In this document: positions 14,418 to 21,286 of the stretch, piece after piece
Numbering within the stretch: the first letter of the stretch is position 1
How the letters are laid out: the number at the start of each line of letters is the position of its first letter
DNA from: Novisyntrophococcus fermenticellae
GTDB lineage: Bacteria; Bacillota; Clostridia; Lachnospirales; Lachnospiraceae
DNA length: 64,000 nucleotides
Direction: 5' to 3'
Assembly: GCF_018866245.1 (NCBI RefSeq)
Contig: NZ_CP076458.1
Span: 3,356,322 to 3,420,321 of the forward strand
The notes under the pieces: model-generated
What the model was told of the DNA's origin: nothing
Seen by the model: the letters and a program-made list of their open reading frames with translations, nothing else
Database searches by the model: none
Made by a program: the position numbers and the translations under genes

Positions 14418-14484
14418 ATACTTCATCTTCACCTATCTGTAAAACATAGCGCAACTTAGTTTTTCCACGATGGCCGCGTAAACT

Positions 14485-14623
14485 AAGACAGTCCATAAGC
14501 TGTTAGCTTATGTCCCAACCGGATGACAAAAGAGATATCCTCCGATTTCGGCGATGTTTCCTAGTTCTGCTTCTACATGTCTCTTCACTCCACAGAGTTA
14601 ATAAACCTCGCAACCTCTACCTC
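14485..14623 (-). ncRNA. Lysine riboswitch aptamer (L-box)
   Basis: The minus-strand RNA has the landmarks of the lysine aptamer: AGAGGTTGCGAGG at the 5' side, ATCGCCGAAATCGG in the middle, a GGTTGGGACATAAGC / GCTTATGG arm, and GACTGTC at the 3' side. A closing P1 helix can form between GAGGTAG (14617-14623) and CTGTCTT (14485-14491). It lies between a strong promoter and an intrinsic terminator, the usual OFF-switch arrangement, upstream of an amino-acid ABC transporter. Confidence 0.9.
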
Positions 14624-14658
14624 ACACACTGAGGTGTCTCATATATTCATTTTTTTAA

Positions 14659-16609: not shown

Positions 16610-17503
16610 TTAGAAGGAGGGAACTACAGCTCCCTCATACTTATCTTCCATGAACTTCTTCACGGTATCACTGGTCAGAGCTTCAACGAGCGCTTTTGTC
16701 TTCTCGCTGTTCTCTTCTCCCGAGCGTACTGCTACGATATTCGCATATGTCGTCGCTGCAATAGAGTCTGCGTCTTCTGTAGCCAGAGCGTCGGATACCT
16801 TAAATCCAGCCTCAATCGCATAGTTTCCATTAATGACCGCTACATCCACATCTGGCAGTGATCGGGGAAGCTGCGCAGCCTCAACTTCGATAATTTCAAA
16901 GTTCTTGTCGTTCTTTACAATGTCATTCTTCGTTGCATCCATCTCTACACCATCCTTCAGACCGATCAGTCCTTTGTCCGCCAGTAAGAGAAGGGCTCTT
17001 GCTTCATTGGAAACATCGTTTGGAACTGCAATTTTGGCTCCATCCTTAAGCTCTTCCAGAGAAGAGGTCTTTCCTGCATAGATGCCAAATGGCTCATAGT
17101 GAATGGCAGCCGCACTTACCAGACTGGTTTTATTTTCCTCGTTAAATTGATCCAAATATGGTTTGTGCTGGAAGTAATTTGCATCCAGGTCTCCGGAATC
17201 AAGCGCAAGATTCGGCTGTACATAGTCCGTATACTCTTTCACTATCAGATTATATCCTTTTTCCTTTAACAAATCCTTTACGGCTTCCAGAACCTCCGCA
17301 TGAGGTGAGGGAGTAGCTCCCACAATAATATCCTCCAAATCTGCGGAATCTTCCCCGGATTTAGATTGTTCAGCCGTAGAATCCGCTTTTGATTCTGCTG
17401 CAGGTTCCGATCCGTTTATGGTGGAATCTGCCTTGGATCCGCATGCTGTCAGCGCACCTGCTGCTAAAACTGCTGCTGTGAGTAAATACAGAGATTTCTT
17501 CAT
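16610..17503 (-). CDS. metQ: Methionine ABC transporter substrate-binding lipoprotein MetQ
   Basis: A 297-residue NlpA/MetQ-type lipoprotein. The signal peptide ends in a lipobox (ALTACGS, Cys near 21). The mature domain opens after a Ser/Asp/Glu-rich linker with IIVGATPSPHAEVLEAVKD, and further on has the LDANYFQHKPYLD, IAVPNDVSNEARALLLL and INGNYAIEAG segments diagnostic of the family. It would bind D/L-methionine outside the membrane and deliver it to MetI/MetN. The ATG at 17503 has a GAGGAGG site. metI lies 1.8 kb upstream on the same strand, separated by an IS110-family element, so metQ probably needs its own or a read-through promoter. Confidence 0.92.
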   Translation of the reverse strand: MKKSLYLLTAAVLAAGALTACGSKADSTINGSEPAAESKADSTAEQSKSGEDSADLEDIIVGATPSPHAEVLEAVKDLLKEKGYNLIVKEYTDYVQPNLALDSGDLDANYFQHKPYLDQFNEENKTSLVSAAAIHYEPFGIYAGKTSSLEELKDGAKIAVPNDVSNEARALLLLADKGLIGLKDGVEMDATKNDIVKNDKNFEIIEVEAAQLPRSLPDVDVAVINGNYAIEAGFKVSDALATEDADSIAATTYANIVAVRSGEENSEKTKALVEALTSDTVKKFMEDKYEGAVVPSF

Positions 17504-17567
17504 AATTTTTCCTCCTCGTATAATATATTTTAGATACTTAATAGTACCTTGATAACTAAATAAATTT

Positions 17568-17838
17568 TGTTCAATCGGCTTAGTTAAGCCCATGATATAA
17601 TTGTCTTAGTGTCAATCAGGTAATAGTTCTTTTTTCTCCTGTTGAACCAGTAATGGTTGCTTCATAATAAGTCTGTTCCCCTGACATGGAAGTTAGCTTC
17701 AAACCGGCTGGCTGTTTGCTTAAGTACATGGACGACCATCTGGCAGTGTGGTTTCGCATCTGTCCATCTTAAGCTGGATTCTTATATGCGAGGGTGTCGA
17801 TGCTCCATGATCATGGGTTTTACCAAGCCGATTGAACA
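17568..17838. repeat. 29-bp inverted repeats bounding the non-coding left region of the IS110 element
   Basis: The arm at 17568-17596 matches the reverse complement of 17810-17838 at 26 of 29 positions. The enclosed ~213 bases contain no open frame of note. The arms could close a long RNA stem or be the termini of a small passenger element. Confidence 0.75.
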
Positions 17839-17869: not shown

Positions 17870-19096
17870 ATGAACCCACTTTACGTCGGAATTGATGTAA
17901 GCAGCAAATCCAATGTCGTTTATTTTATGCTGCCTGATGGTAACAAACATAGTAACTTCTCAGTTGCTAACTCACAGGATGGTTCTGTTCAGTTGGTAAA
18001 AAGAATCTGTTCTGCTTTAAATTCTCAGTCCCTTGACACCGTCCTCATAGGTCTCGAATCAACATCTGTCTATGGTGACAATCTCGTGTATTTCTTAAGG
18101 GAAGATGCATCTCTTGCATCCTTTAACAGAAAGATTCATGTCCTCAACCCCAAGCAGGTTAAAAAGTTTAAGGATGCTTATAATGACCTGCCAAAGAATG
18201 ATTATGTGGACTCTTTTGTCATTGCTGACTGCCTGCGTTTTGGAAGAATCAACAAAGAGGTATACATAGGAGATTATCACTACAAAGCTCTCCAAAACCT
18301 CACACGCGCACGATACTTTACCGTCTGCAACCTCATCAAAGAAAAGCAACGGTTTATGAATGTGCTGTTTAAGAAGTATTCAACCATGACACAGGAGAAG
18401 GTATTTTCAGATACCTTCAGTACGACCGCCCTTGCTGTCTACGATGAATTTGAATCCGCAGAAGCACTGGCATATATGGACTTACATGAACTGACCGCTT
18501 TTATCATGGAAAAAGGAAAGAACCGCTTTCCAGATCCCGATGCGGTAGCCAAAGCCATTCAGAAAGCTGCCCGGAGTTCCTACCGTTTACCCAAGACGGT
18601 AAATGACTCTGTAAATCAGGTACTTTCCATATCCATAACCTCCATAAAGGCATTGGAAGCGCAAATCAAAGAGTTCGATAAAGCAATCTCTGCTCAAATG
18701 GAACTCCTTCAAAACGTATTGATATCTATACCTGGAATCGGTCCCGTTTATTCTGCCGGTATCATGGCAGAGATTGGAGATATCAACCGTTTTGAAAATC
18801 AGGCGCAGCTTGCGAAATATGCAGGTCTTGCCTGGACTCAGCACCAGTCTGGTGATTTTGAAGCACAAAACACAAGGCTCATCAGGTCTGGTAACCGATT
18901 TTTAAAGTATTATCTGTGTGAAGCTGCATTCTCTCTTGTAAGATGCGACAAGGAGTACAAAGCTTTTTATCACCAAAAGTACAAAGAGGTGAACAGATAT
19001 CAACACAAACGTGCACTCGCATTAACTGCCCGTAAATTTGTGCGGTTAGTCTTTACGCTACTGAAAGACAACCGCCTATATCGCCCAGCAGAATAG
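17870..19096 (+). CDS. IS110-family transposase/recombinase
   Basis: A 408-residue protein. The N-terminal RuvC-like DEDD domain begins with YVGIDVSSKSNVVYF (first Asp near 9), with IGLESTSVYG (Glu near 64) and NDYVDSFVIADCLRFG (Asp pair near 110). The C-terminal Tnp_20 domain has SIPGIGPVYSAGIMAEIGD and the serine-containing RLIRSGNRFLKYYLCEA. It acts with an element-encoded RNA to move the IS. The gene looks intact, so the element may still be active. An AAGAAGGTG site precedes the ATG. Confidence 0.93.
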   Translation: MNPLYVGIDVSSKSNVVYFMLPDGNKHSNFSVANSQDGSVQLVKRICSALNSQSLDTVLIGLESTSVYGDNLVYFLREDASLASFNRKIHVLNPKQVKKFKDAYNDLPKNDYVDSFVIADCLRFGRINKEVYIGDYHYKALQNLTRARYFTVCNLIKEKQRFMNVLFKKYSTMTQEKVFSDTFSTTALAVYDEFESAEALAYMDLHELTAFIMEKGKNRFPDPDAVAKAIQKAARSSYRLPKTVNDSVNQVLSISITSIKALEAQIKEFDKAISAQMELLQNVLISIPGIGPVYSAGIMAEIGDINRFENQAQLAKYAGLAWTQHQSGDFEAQNTRLIRSGNRFLKYYLCEAAFSLVRCDKEYKAFYHQKYKEVNRYQHKRALALTARKFVRLVFTLLKDNRLYRPAE

Positions 19097-19303: not shown

Positions 19304-19969
19304 CTACTTGATTCGTTTGTCACTGCTCCTGGATATTTTCATTCCCACTTCTTGTATAATCTGAACAATAATAACCAGAATAATCACCGTAATAAGCATC
19401 ATTTCCGTCTGATACCGGTAATATCCATATCGGATAGCAATATCCCCAAGTCCGCCTCCGCCTACAGCGCCTGTCATGGCAGAATAAGCTAAAATTGTAG
19501 TCACGGACAGCACCGCTCCCGTAATCAGGGATGGTTTTGCCTCGGGAAGAAGGACTTTCCATATAATCTGAAAGGTAGAAGCCCCCATGGACTTTGCTGC
19601 TTCAATCACACCGCTGTCCACCTCCCGGAAGGAGGATTCCACAACTCTGGCCACGTAGGGCGCAGAAGCTAAAGTCAGGGGCGGGATTACACCCTTTACC
19701 CCTAAAGAGGTGCCAATCAATACCCTCGTTACCGGAATCATCATTACTATAAAGATAATAAACGGTATAGAACGAATCAGATTTACAATCATTCCTAAAG
19801 GCTTATGAATCCATGGAACAGGATAAATACCGTCTTTATCCATAACTGTAAGGATAATGCCGAGGGGCAATCCAATCAGATAAGCCAGAAAAGAAGAGAT
19901 AGATATCATCTTCAAGGAGTCTAGCGTTCCTACCAGAAGCATCTGTACTGTTTCGTTATCAAAGGTCAT
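19304..19969 (-). CDS. metI: Methionine ABC transporter permease MetI
   Basis: A 221-residue inner-membrane permease with five or so hydrophobic segments and the coupling motif EAAKSMGASTFQIIWKVLLPEA (near 140-161). LDSLKMISISSFLAYLIGLP at the N-terminus is typical of MetI. It overlaps the end of metN by 11 bases on the same strand. Its natural partner metQ should follow directly but is displaced by the IS110-family element that begins within ~20 bases of its stop. Confidence 0.92.
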   Translation of the reverse strand: MTFDNETVQMLLVGTLDSLKMISISSFLAYLIGLPLGIILTVMDKDGIYPVPWIHKPLGMIVNLIRSIPFIIFIVMMIPVTRVLIGTSLGVKGVIPPLTLASAPYVARVVESSFREVDSGVIEAAKSMGASTFQIIWKVLLPEAKPSLITGAVLSVTTILAYSAMTGAVGGGGLGDIAIRYGYYRYQTEMMLITVIILVIIVQIIQEVGMKISRSSDKRIK

Positions 19970-20981
19970 AACTTTTCACCTCCTCATATGGTATTTCGGA
20001 TGTATGAAGGTAGCTCAGTACCTTGCCTTGATCCCCTTCATTTTCAGGAAGCTGGATAACCATCTGTCCCATTGCGGTTCCGTTAATGTCCCTTGTCTCC
20101 GCATGTATAATGTTAACCGGAACCTTACATGTTAAAATAAGGTTGGCCAAAACAGGTTCAAAAGAAGAACGTCCGTCAAAAGAGATTCTAATCTGTCTGG
20201 AATTCCTGAACCGGATAACCTGACCGGCCGCATCTCCAAGGATAAGCTGCCTTCCAATTTTGGATTTCGGATTGGAAAATATCTGAGCCACAGAACCTTC
20301 TTCTGCAATATGGCTCTGGTCAATAATAGCAACCTTGTCGCAAATAGCTTCTATTACAGCCATCTCATGGGTAATAACTACCACTGTAACCCCCATGGTT
20401 TTGTTAATTTGTCTCAGCAGATCCAGAATAGACTTTGTGGTGTTAGGATCCAGAGCACTGGTGGCCTCATCGCAGAGGAGAATCTTGGGATTCGTCGCCA
20501 ATGCCCTTGCAATGGCTACTCTCTGCTTTTGTCCCCCCGACAACTGAGCCGGATAAGCATTTGCCCGATCTTGAAGCCCTACGATCTCCAGAAGTTCCAT
20601 CGCTCGCTTCTGAGCATCCTTCTTGGGCTTTTTGGCAATTTCCAAGGGAAAGCAGACGTTCTGAAGTACATTTCTCTGCTCTAGCAGATTAAACTGCTGG
20701 AAAATCATGCCCATGGACTGTCTCGCCAGCCTCTGCTCCTTCGGTTTCATATTGGATAGGCTTTTATTTTCAAAAAACACGTCTCCCGCTGTAGGTAACT
20801 CCAGGTAGTTAATGCATCGAACCAGCGTACTCTTTCCCGCTCCGCTAAGACCGATAATTCCATATATTTCTCCTCTCCCAATGGACAGGTTGATATCATC
20901 CAGTGCCTTAATGGGACCATTCGAAGTATCAAAATATTTCCCAAGCCCGACCAGGCGTATAATCGGTTCTGATGACTGCAT
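19959..20981 (-). CDS. metN: Methionine ABC transporter ATP-binding protein MetN
   Basis: A 340-residue ATPase: Walker A GLSGAGKST, Q-loop FQQFNLL, signature LSGGQKQR, Walker B LLCDEATSALD and switch ITHEMAV. The C-terminal ~90 residues form the NIL domain that binds methionine and inhibits transport when it is plentiful. It powers MetI/MetQ. A GGAGAC site precedes the ATG. It is preceded by a Met-rich leader ORF and an intrinsic terminator, suggesting control by methionyl-tRNA charging in place of the more common SAM riboswitch, of which no trace is seen. Confidence 0.94.
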   Translation of the reverse strand: MQSSEPIIRLVGLGKYFDTSNGPIKALDDINLSIGRGEIYGIIGLSGAGKSTLVRCINYLELPTAGDVFFENKSLSNMKPKEQRLARQSMGMIFQQFNLLEQRNVLQNVCFPLEIAKKPKKDAQKRAMELLEIVGLQDRANAYPAQLSGGQKQRVAIARALATNPKILLCDEATSALDPNTTKSILDLLRQINKTMGVTVVVITHEMAVIEAICDKVAIIDQSHIAEEGSVAQIFSNPKSKIGRQLILGDAAGQVIRFRNSRQIRISFDGRSSFEPVLANLILTCKVPVNIIHAETRDINGTAMGQMVIQLPENEGDQGKVLSYLHTSEIPYEEVKSYDL

Positions 20982-21005: not shown

Positions 21006-21041
21006 AAAACAAAAAGCCACAAGTCCTGCACAGACCTGTGA
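21006..21041 (-). terminator. Attenuator terminator in the metN leader
   Basis: On the minus strand: TCACAGGTC, loop TGTGCAG, GACTTGTGG, then CTTTTTGTTTT. This is a 9-bp stem with one G-T pair followed by a U tract, ending about 25 bases before the metN start codon and 65 bases after the leader ORF stop. Confidence 0.85.
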
Positions 21042-21105
21042 CCTGATAATCCCGCGTTTTTCGCCGCTTCCAATTCCAAGCACTATCCATACAAATGAAA
21101 ATCCA

Positions 21106-21201
21106 TCATCGTCTTTTTGCACACTCTGACATACAGCACATCATCATACACATGCTGTTCATCGGGATCATATTCATCTGCATAGCTTTAAACTGGTTCA
21201 T
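21106..21201 (-). CDS. Methionine-rich leader peptide upstream of metN
   Basis: A 31-codon ORF beginning MNQFKAMQMNMIPMNSM and ending in CAKRR. Ten of its 31 codons are Met (positions 1, 7, 9, 11, 14, 17, 19, 20, 21, 24), with four Cys (18, 22, 23, 27). A clear AAAGGAG site lies 9 bases before the ATG, and a near-consensus promoter lies about 57 bases further upstream. Ribosome stalling on consecutive Met codons when charged Met-tRNA is scarce would change folding of the following RNA and relieve the terminator before metN. This is the logic of trp- or his-type attenuation applied to methionine uptake. The alternative antiterminator pairing was not worked out. Confidence 0.8.
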   Translation of the reverse strand: MNQFKAMQMNMIPMNSMCMMMCCMSECAKRR

Positions 21202-21257
21202 GGCGGCAGCTCCTTTCATATACTCTATGGGTAAACTAGGGATTCTTTATGAGCCGT

Positions 21258-21286
21258 ATTTTACCCCTTCTTCTGACATTTGTCAA
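21258..21286 (-). promoter_or_regulatory. Promoter of the metN leader and operon
   Basis: On the minus strand: TTGACA (21281-21286), exactly 17 bases, TAAAAT (21258-21263). Transcription would start about 50 bases before the leader ORF. Confidence 0.82.

Follow-up and report, generated by a model that had tools for sequence, protein, structure and literature searches.

The methionine transporter operon metNI(Q) of Novisyntrophococcus fermenticellae is very probably controlled by a ribosome-mediated transcription attenuator that responds to limitation for methionine, and probably also for cysteine. The window (the whole stretch of 64,000 nucleotides that was analysed) holds, between a promoter match and metN, a Met-rich ORF, a terminator and the capacity for mutually exclusive RNA pairings. 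To these, comparison adds conservation, covariation in the terminator (3:4) and in a hairpin within the ORF, and association with metN. That the leader is translated, that ribosomes stall on it, that Met and Cys provide the signal and that folding follows a particular kinetic order is inferred. The original prediction had likewise read the region as an attenuator, and it is supported by conservation of the ORF, by the capacity for exclusive pairings and by AUG-reading T-boxes in front of other metN genes.

All elements of the operon lie on the minus strand. The leader ORF (21106..21201; 31 codons plus stop, ATG at 21201), recognized by its homologues and its Met clustering, encodes the peptide MNQFKAMQMNMIPMNSMCMMMCCMSECAKRR (translation of 21201-21106), in which 10 residues including the start are Met, three of them consecutive at 19-21, and 4 are Cys. 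A sequence match to a ribosome binding site, AAAGGAG, stands at 21210..21216, and the Met-rich ORF with a ribosome binding site that had been predicted on this strand is thus borne out; GGAG-type motifs also stand ahead of most leader ORFs in relatives. Of the window's 411 ORFs of 20-60 aa that begin with ATG, this one, counted from an ATG six codons farther upstream, ranks top for Met clustering, with 8 Met in 15 codons against 4 for the runner-up. The codon-position signal is modest, with 142, 156 and 207 differences at positions 1, 2 and 3 over 74 close pairs (89 synonymous and 299 non-synonymous codon differences). Upstream, a sigma-70-type promoter match, TTGACA-17-TAAAAT (21258..21286), agrees with the consensus at 11 of 12 positions; in that sense the near-consensus promoter stands, but one match in the scanned region against a shuffle mean of 1.6 is not above chance on its own. 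An ATACGCC-like stretch upstream of the leader is kept in many relatives. Several relatives also carry, between promoter and ribosome binding site, an inverted repeat of the ATTCCTAGT..ACTATAGGAAT type, which is degenerate in the window.

Downstream lie metN (19959..20981), the methionine ABC transporter ATPase with a NIL domain, the permease gene metI (19304..19969) and metQ (16610..17593), for the substrate-binding lipoprotein. NCBIfam and Pfam profiles support all three identities, at NCBIfam scores below the cut-off (MetN 334 bits vs. 499.7, MetI 209 vs. 212, MetQ 189 vs. 374). Judged by eye, the true start of metQ is probably the internal MKKSLYLL. In the window an IS110-type transposase gene (17870-19096, plus strand) separates metI from metQ, and a 29-nt inverted repeat (90%) pairs 17568-17596 with 17810-17838; in 77 relatives with both genes, the metI and metQ matches are only 3-432 bases apart. 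Farther along, the window contains a lysine riboswitch (76.5 bits, 14439-14627, minus strand), and the genes behind it resemble, by eye, those of an amino-acid ABC transporter (fused binding-protein/permease ORF 14496-12709, ATPase 12702-11965).

The intrinsic terminator with its U-rich tail (21006..21044) is indicated by both folding and covariation. Its hairpin (21044-21014) has -17.3 kcal/mol (z -4.55) and a stem of 12-13 bp, so the terminator and U tract described earlier ahead of metN are present, and the stem is longer than the 9 bp given for it. The leader as a whole folds with z -4.58, equalled in none of 200 shuffles, and a strict terminator search is positive in 68 of 74 leaders. Over 47 aligned leaders, 3:4 is paired in 92.5% of cells. 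A further hairpin (21133..21158) lies within the ORF, where codons 15-17 pair with 21-23 around a loop of Met codons; RNAalifold detects it, and taken alone in the window it has -10.9 kcal/mol (z -3.0). Double-change cells number 47 for 3:4 (16.9 in shuffles) and 26 for the in-ORF hairpin (10.4 in shuffles), each reached by 0 of 500 shuffles, counts that are not to be read as probabilities because related sequences can beat all shuffles without structure. Slid controls, with at most 27 and 11 such cells respectively, point in the same direction. The pairing within the ORF accounts for an alternation in the peptide between NS..CC and NG..CR.

The leader RNA has a trp-type layout of alternative pairings, 1:2, 2:3 and 3:4, in which protector and antiterminator are mutually exclusive by pairing capacity. 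Region 2 (21079..21099), a conserved element behind the ORF with the consensus TTTCATTTGTATGGATTGTGAT, is complementary to codons 6-10 (region 1, 21173..21185; 13 pairs, formed by 21099-21087 of region 2) and also to the terminator 5' arm and loop (region 3, 21026..21042; 16 pairs with one bulge, formed by 21094-21079). The first helix is present in the MFE of the window leader as well as in the alignment; the second is indicated by alignment pairing and the fold model, and 14 of its 16 consensus pairs hold in the window, with two mismatches. Among the 47 aligned leaders, 1:2 is paired in 91.7% of cells and 2:3 in 86.2%, compared with 32-50% and 19-52% when slid. Neither shows covariation beyond shuffles in this alignment, as might be expected if region 2 has to match both of its partners and region 1 has to encode Met. 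Mean duplex energies of each leader's own regions are -16.6 (1:2) and -16.5 kcal/mol (2:3); shuffling region 2 brings the means to -7.4 and -7.7, and the own duplex lies below the pooled 5th shuffle percentile in 47 and 45 of 50 leaders. Duplexes with swapped partners average -15.6 and -15.5, and the own duplex beats the swap mean in 34 and 38 of 50. By a looser duplex test on 70 leaders, mean z is -2.6, with 47 below -2 and the window at -1.3. An alternative antiterminator pairing, for which the original prediction proposed to look, exists and is conserved as pairing, not as covariation. One sub-group (L050, L057, L074-L077, L080 and L085) has a region 2 that differs from the consensus; at L050, L057 and L080 its apparent partner is instead the loop of the terminator together with the 3' arm.

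The switch was modelled in 61 leaders by simply removing the RNA that the ribosome covers and all RNA 5' of it, a simplification least secure at codon 20. Before the terminator 3' arm is made, the mean probability of 2:3 is 0.10 without a ribosome and 0.50, 0.59 and 0.54 with one at codon 9, 14 and 20; values above 0.5 occur in 5 of 61 leaders in the free state and in 33, 41 and 39 in the stalled ones. With the ribosome at the stop codon the mean is 0.46, and 34 of 61 leaders exceed 0.5. The window itself goes from 0.00 free to 0.85 at all three stall sites and 0.84 at the stop, and five leaders (L032, L060, L068, L071, L073) exceed 0.5 even without a ribosome. At equilibrium the terminator prevails in the complete leader whatever the state, with few exceptions (mean P 0.84-0.92), and control has to be assumed to be kinetic. 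The E. coli trpL control behaves as the leaders do here, with the terminator at 0.94-0.96 in all states. A broader measure, the pairing of the terminator arm with anything upstream, gives 0.07 free, 0.62 stalled and 0.00 at the stop for trpL; the same measure gives 0.61, 0.75 and 0.75 for the window, a low contrast that arises because the ribosome-free arm pairs with other upstream RNA. In this model, the window's states separate only when 2:3 is counted specifically, which, together with the two mismatches in its 2:3 helix, slightly lowers our confidence in the mechanism. An off-switch in which a ribosome at the stop codon masks region 2 was rejected for the window by its value of 0.84 there. 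Since such a ribosome leaves the 2:3 part of region 2 unmasked, repression would need ribosome release and re-formation of 1:2. Where the ORF ends inside region 2 (e.g. G003, L017, L029, L032, L065), the stop-codon ribosome does mask it, with P(2:3) at 0.0.

The proposed attenuator would work as follows. With an ample supply of methionine (and probably cysteine), the ribosome would complete the leader peptide and depart, 1:2 would pair, and the terminator 3:4 would form and end transcription before metN. A shortage of charged tRNA-Met or tRNA-Cys would instead stall the ribosome in the zone of codons 7-24 and separate region 1 from region 2; 2:3 could then pair ahead of the synthesis of region 4, and transcription would continue into metN. 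A role in pausing RNA polymerase or in tuning the passage of the ribosome is possible for the in-ORF hairpin.

Conservation was examined in the best 80 of 495 stretches with a MetN relative, chosen by MetN similarity alone (68-97% identical) and spanning Lacrimispora, Hungatella, Enterocloster, Clostridium, unnamed Lachnospiraceae and others. Absence of the Met-rich ORF from close relatives, a possibility raised with the original prediction, is the opposite of what is seen: a homologous leader ORF is retained at 72 of these 80 loci (score at least 17 against the seed profile). The other eight comprise L039, with only 138 bases upstream, L090, whose Met-rich ORF scores 13.4, two loci with T-boxes (L067, L094), and four (L062, L069, L084, L096) with no leader ORF scoring at least 17 and no element identified upstream of metN. 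The consensus of 31 representatives is MxQxxAMQMNMxMMNGMxxMCRMxxCxKN. A profile of the peptide has one match each in 16 of the 397 family genomes, the window's own among them, which belong to 13 of 334 genera, and all 16 matches lie directly upstream of metN on the same strand (L100-L114, L013), none before any other gene. Searched across the order, the profile matches in 10 of 392 genomes, with one weak match outside the family (G535, E 0.0026, L132). Within the genus, four of six genomes have a close metN; the two that lack it (G002, G004) have no match in the peptide search either. At L185 (G132), metN has an internal stop, and a promoter-like sequence and a typical terminator are retained upstream with no leader ORF between them.

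A survey of the family covered 144 of 146 metN places, from 136 of 299 genomes, with a Met-cluster ORF defined as an RBS-preceded ORF upstream of metN having at least 4 Met within 15 codons. Such ORFs precede 37 of the 144 metN genes; the reverse strand has 0 of 144, and shuffled sequence gives 0.7 per 144. These 37 leaders are 21.4% Met and 9.0% Cys, and every one contains Cys (two or more in 35). Some, such as those at L203, L217, L223 and L234, have little in common with the window leader except their Met and Cys codons, and this favours the reading of codons over a specific nascent chain. The leader is missing at 107 of 144 metN genes, 30 of them behind metQ; where metQ is not directly upstream, 37 of 114 have it. 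Inspection before metQ in 20 of the 30 metQ-first operons finds a Met/Cys-rich leader in two (L293, L295). In eight of the 20 (L280, L282, L285-L287, L289, L291, L292), the operon start was not reached because the MetQ match is preceded by another 293-355 codons of the same open frame; MetQ may there be fused to a second binding domain, as the upstream part resembles an amino-acid binding protein by eye. A match before metQ at L292 was discounted because it lies inside the coding frame that runs on into metQ, and a 12-aa ORF apparently conserved in leaderless loci was rejected as another frame inside the metQ preceding metN. At six loci (L249, L250, L260, L241, L272, L177), metN follows a gene that looks cysteine synthase-like in translation, by eye, which fits a link between the transporter and cysteine. 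Mapping the leader onto a MetN tree (FastTree) takes 20 changes, of which well-supported branches force at least 11, compared with a shuffled mean of 33.1; by this reconstruction the leader clusters on the tree yet has been gained or lost repeatedly. Outside the family, 60 metN upstream regions (truncated at L299 and L321) have a Met-cluster ORF in four cases and none on the reverse strand, and metQ upstream in 11.

Other metN genes are preceded by other sensors. T-boxes at the Rfam gathering score occur at L143, L159, L067 and L094, and outside the family at L324, L325, L329 and L331; all eight have AUG at the specifier position, which we take to be the one placed after GAA, and this fits a methionyl-tRNA signal. 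SAM riboswitches precede metN at L350, L351, L352, L354 and L355. The whole window was scanned, and its metN leader matches no Rfam family at gathering score, including T-box RF00230 and SAM RF00162; an already described riboswitch or T-box is therefore rejected here. Another 40 family metN loci (38 without a Met-cluster ORF), scanned against Rfam, likewise give nothing at gathering score, and one of the negative loci, L181, has a T-box-like GGTGGTAACACG stretch by eye. The genome itself has one SAM riboswitch match, before a gene named metK-like from its translation, and 13 T-box matches, seven of them above the cut-off.

Among other explanations, we consider an arrest peptide improbable, though the least so. 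The nascent Met/Cys-rich chain would itself stall the ribosome by sensing free methionine or SAM in the exit tunnel, as TnaC stalls with tryptophan as ligand, and conservation of non-Met residues in the core group (Q8 in 43 of 46 rows, C22 in 47 of 47) speaks for it. Much of that conservation is explained by RNA pairing, however, as region 1 is made up of codons 6-10, and the covarying hairpin takes in residues 15-16 and 22-23 (Ser-Cys vs. Gly-Arg). Leaders elsewhere are alike in composition and not in sequence, and the sign opposite to that of TnaC would be needed, as an importer should be induced by lack of its ligand.

A translation-independent metabolite riboswitch or T-box, in which the ORF is incidental, would suit the strongly structured RNA (z -4.58) and the company of other clostridial metN genes behind SAM riboswitches and T-boxes; the missing Rfam match at gathering score and the recurrence of clustered-Met ORFs, otherwise unrelated in sequence, at 37 of 144 metN genes of the family make it highly unlikely. 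We give the same slim chance to a functional small protein co-transcribed with metN. Its Met- and Cys-rich composition is also that of Cu(I) sites, and copper binding would be one such function, but a protein of this kind sits poorly with profile matches that stand before metN in 16 of 16 cases, a strict terminator after 68 of 74 leaders, strong sequence differences between genera and the lack of a Pfam match. That the ORF is short and has a modest codon-position signal could also be put down to chance within a structured leader, a reading that we regard as negligible since it is contradicted by the ORF's first place among 411 in the window, its presence in 72 of 80 relatives and the 0 of 144 reverse-strand controls.

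Classical ribosome-mediated attenuators, such as those of trp, his and leu in E. coli, have a leader ORF rich in cognate codons, and that of trp also has exclusive 1:2, 2:3 and 3:4 pairings. The metN leader shares the cognate-codon-rich ORF with all of these, and the three pairings with trp; it differs in its Met/Cys codons, in serving a transporter operon, in the extra covarying hairpin inside the ORF and in having region 1 near the ORF start. His leaders, which share the ORF type, precede hisS/hisZ in Bacilli (PMC2965389). The nearest published counterpart found is in Streptomyces lividans TK24, where a 29-aa leader, metL, with CMCRRMC is predicted before metNIQ and proposed as a methionine attenuator; it is leaderless and, according to its authors, lacks a typical Rho-independent terminator (PMC8079986). 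By the published peptide, the likeness lies in a short ORF with clustered Met and Cys codons upstream of metNIQ. Unlike metL of this actinobacterium, so far as that source describes it, the clostridial leader is Shine-Dalgarno-led, has a terminator and an antiterminator, and is conserved in dozens of genomes; the passages of PMC8079986 consulted contain no comparative or alternative-pairing analysis of metL. The original prediction overlooked metL, along with the covarying in-ORF hairpin and the recurring Cys codons. It knew of no standard description of a Met-rich metNIQ leader in this group; for Firmicutes, no description of a Met leader before metN was found in the literature searched, a collection that lacks most subscription journals. 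In actinobacterial cys operons, short ORFs with runs of cysteine codons are described; they resemble the metN leader as cognate-codon ORFs but stand before cysteine operons, and the authors report no conserved terminator hairpin for the Mycobacterium cys leaders and no conserved RNA structure upstream of actinobacterial methionine operons (PMC1262725).

Methionine genes of other Firmicutes are described as controlled by RNA of other kinds: a Met T-box for the met transporter operon of L. lactis (PMC7058034), a Met T-box preferring initiator tRNA in the S. aureus met leader (PMC3771891), and, in C. perfringens, S-box control of metK and metT with T-box control of several cysteine genes (PMC2940859). 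As proposed for the metN leader, Met T-boxes and SAM riboswitches act by premature termination before methionine genes, and T-boxes also read tRNA-Met charging; they differ in sensing tRNA or SAM directly, without translation, and the metN leader has no Rfam match.

Methionine is the one amino acid that seems awkward for codon-based attenuation, since a lack of it should at once prevent the leader peptide from being initiated. A tentative extension, which we hold to be possible and rather unlikely, is that the leader acts as a sulfur-amino-acid gauge, bringing Met and Cys charging to bear on one transporter, with a band-pass response and with the recurrent Met and Cys clusters as independent inventions. 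Moderate Met shortage would turn import on, and extreme shortage would starve fMet-tRNA initiation, leave 1:2 and 3:4 to form and turn import off. The attenuator proposed here would be a third kind of sensor before the same clostridial transporter gene, beside the Met T-box and the SAM riboswitch, and the replacement of one regulator by another can be traced on a single gene tree, that of metN. As a natural Met-codon attenuator present in many genomes, it would make the charging of initiator versus elongator tRNA-Met directly testable.
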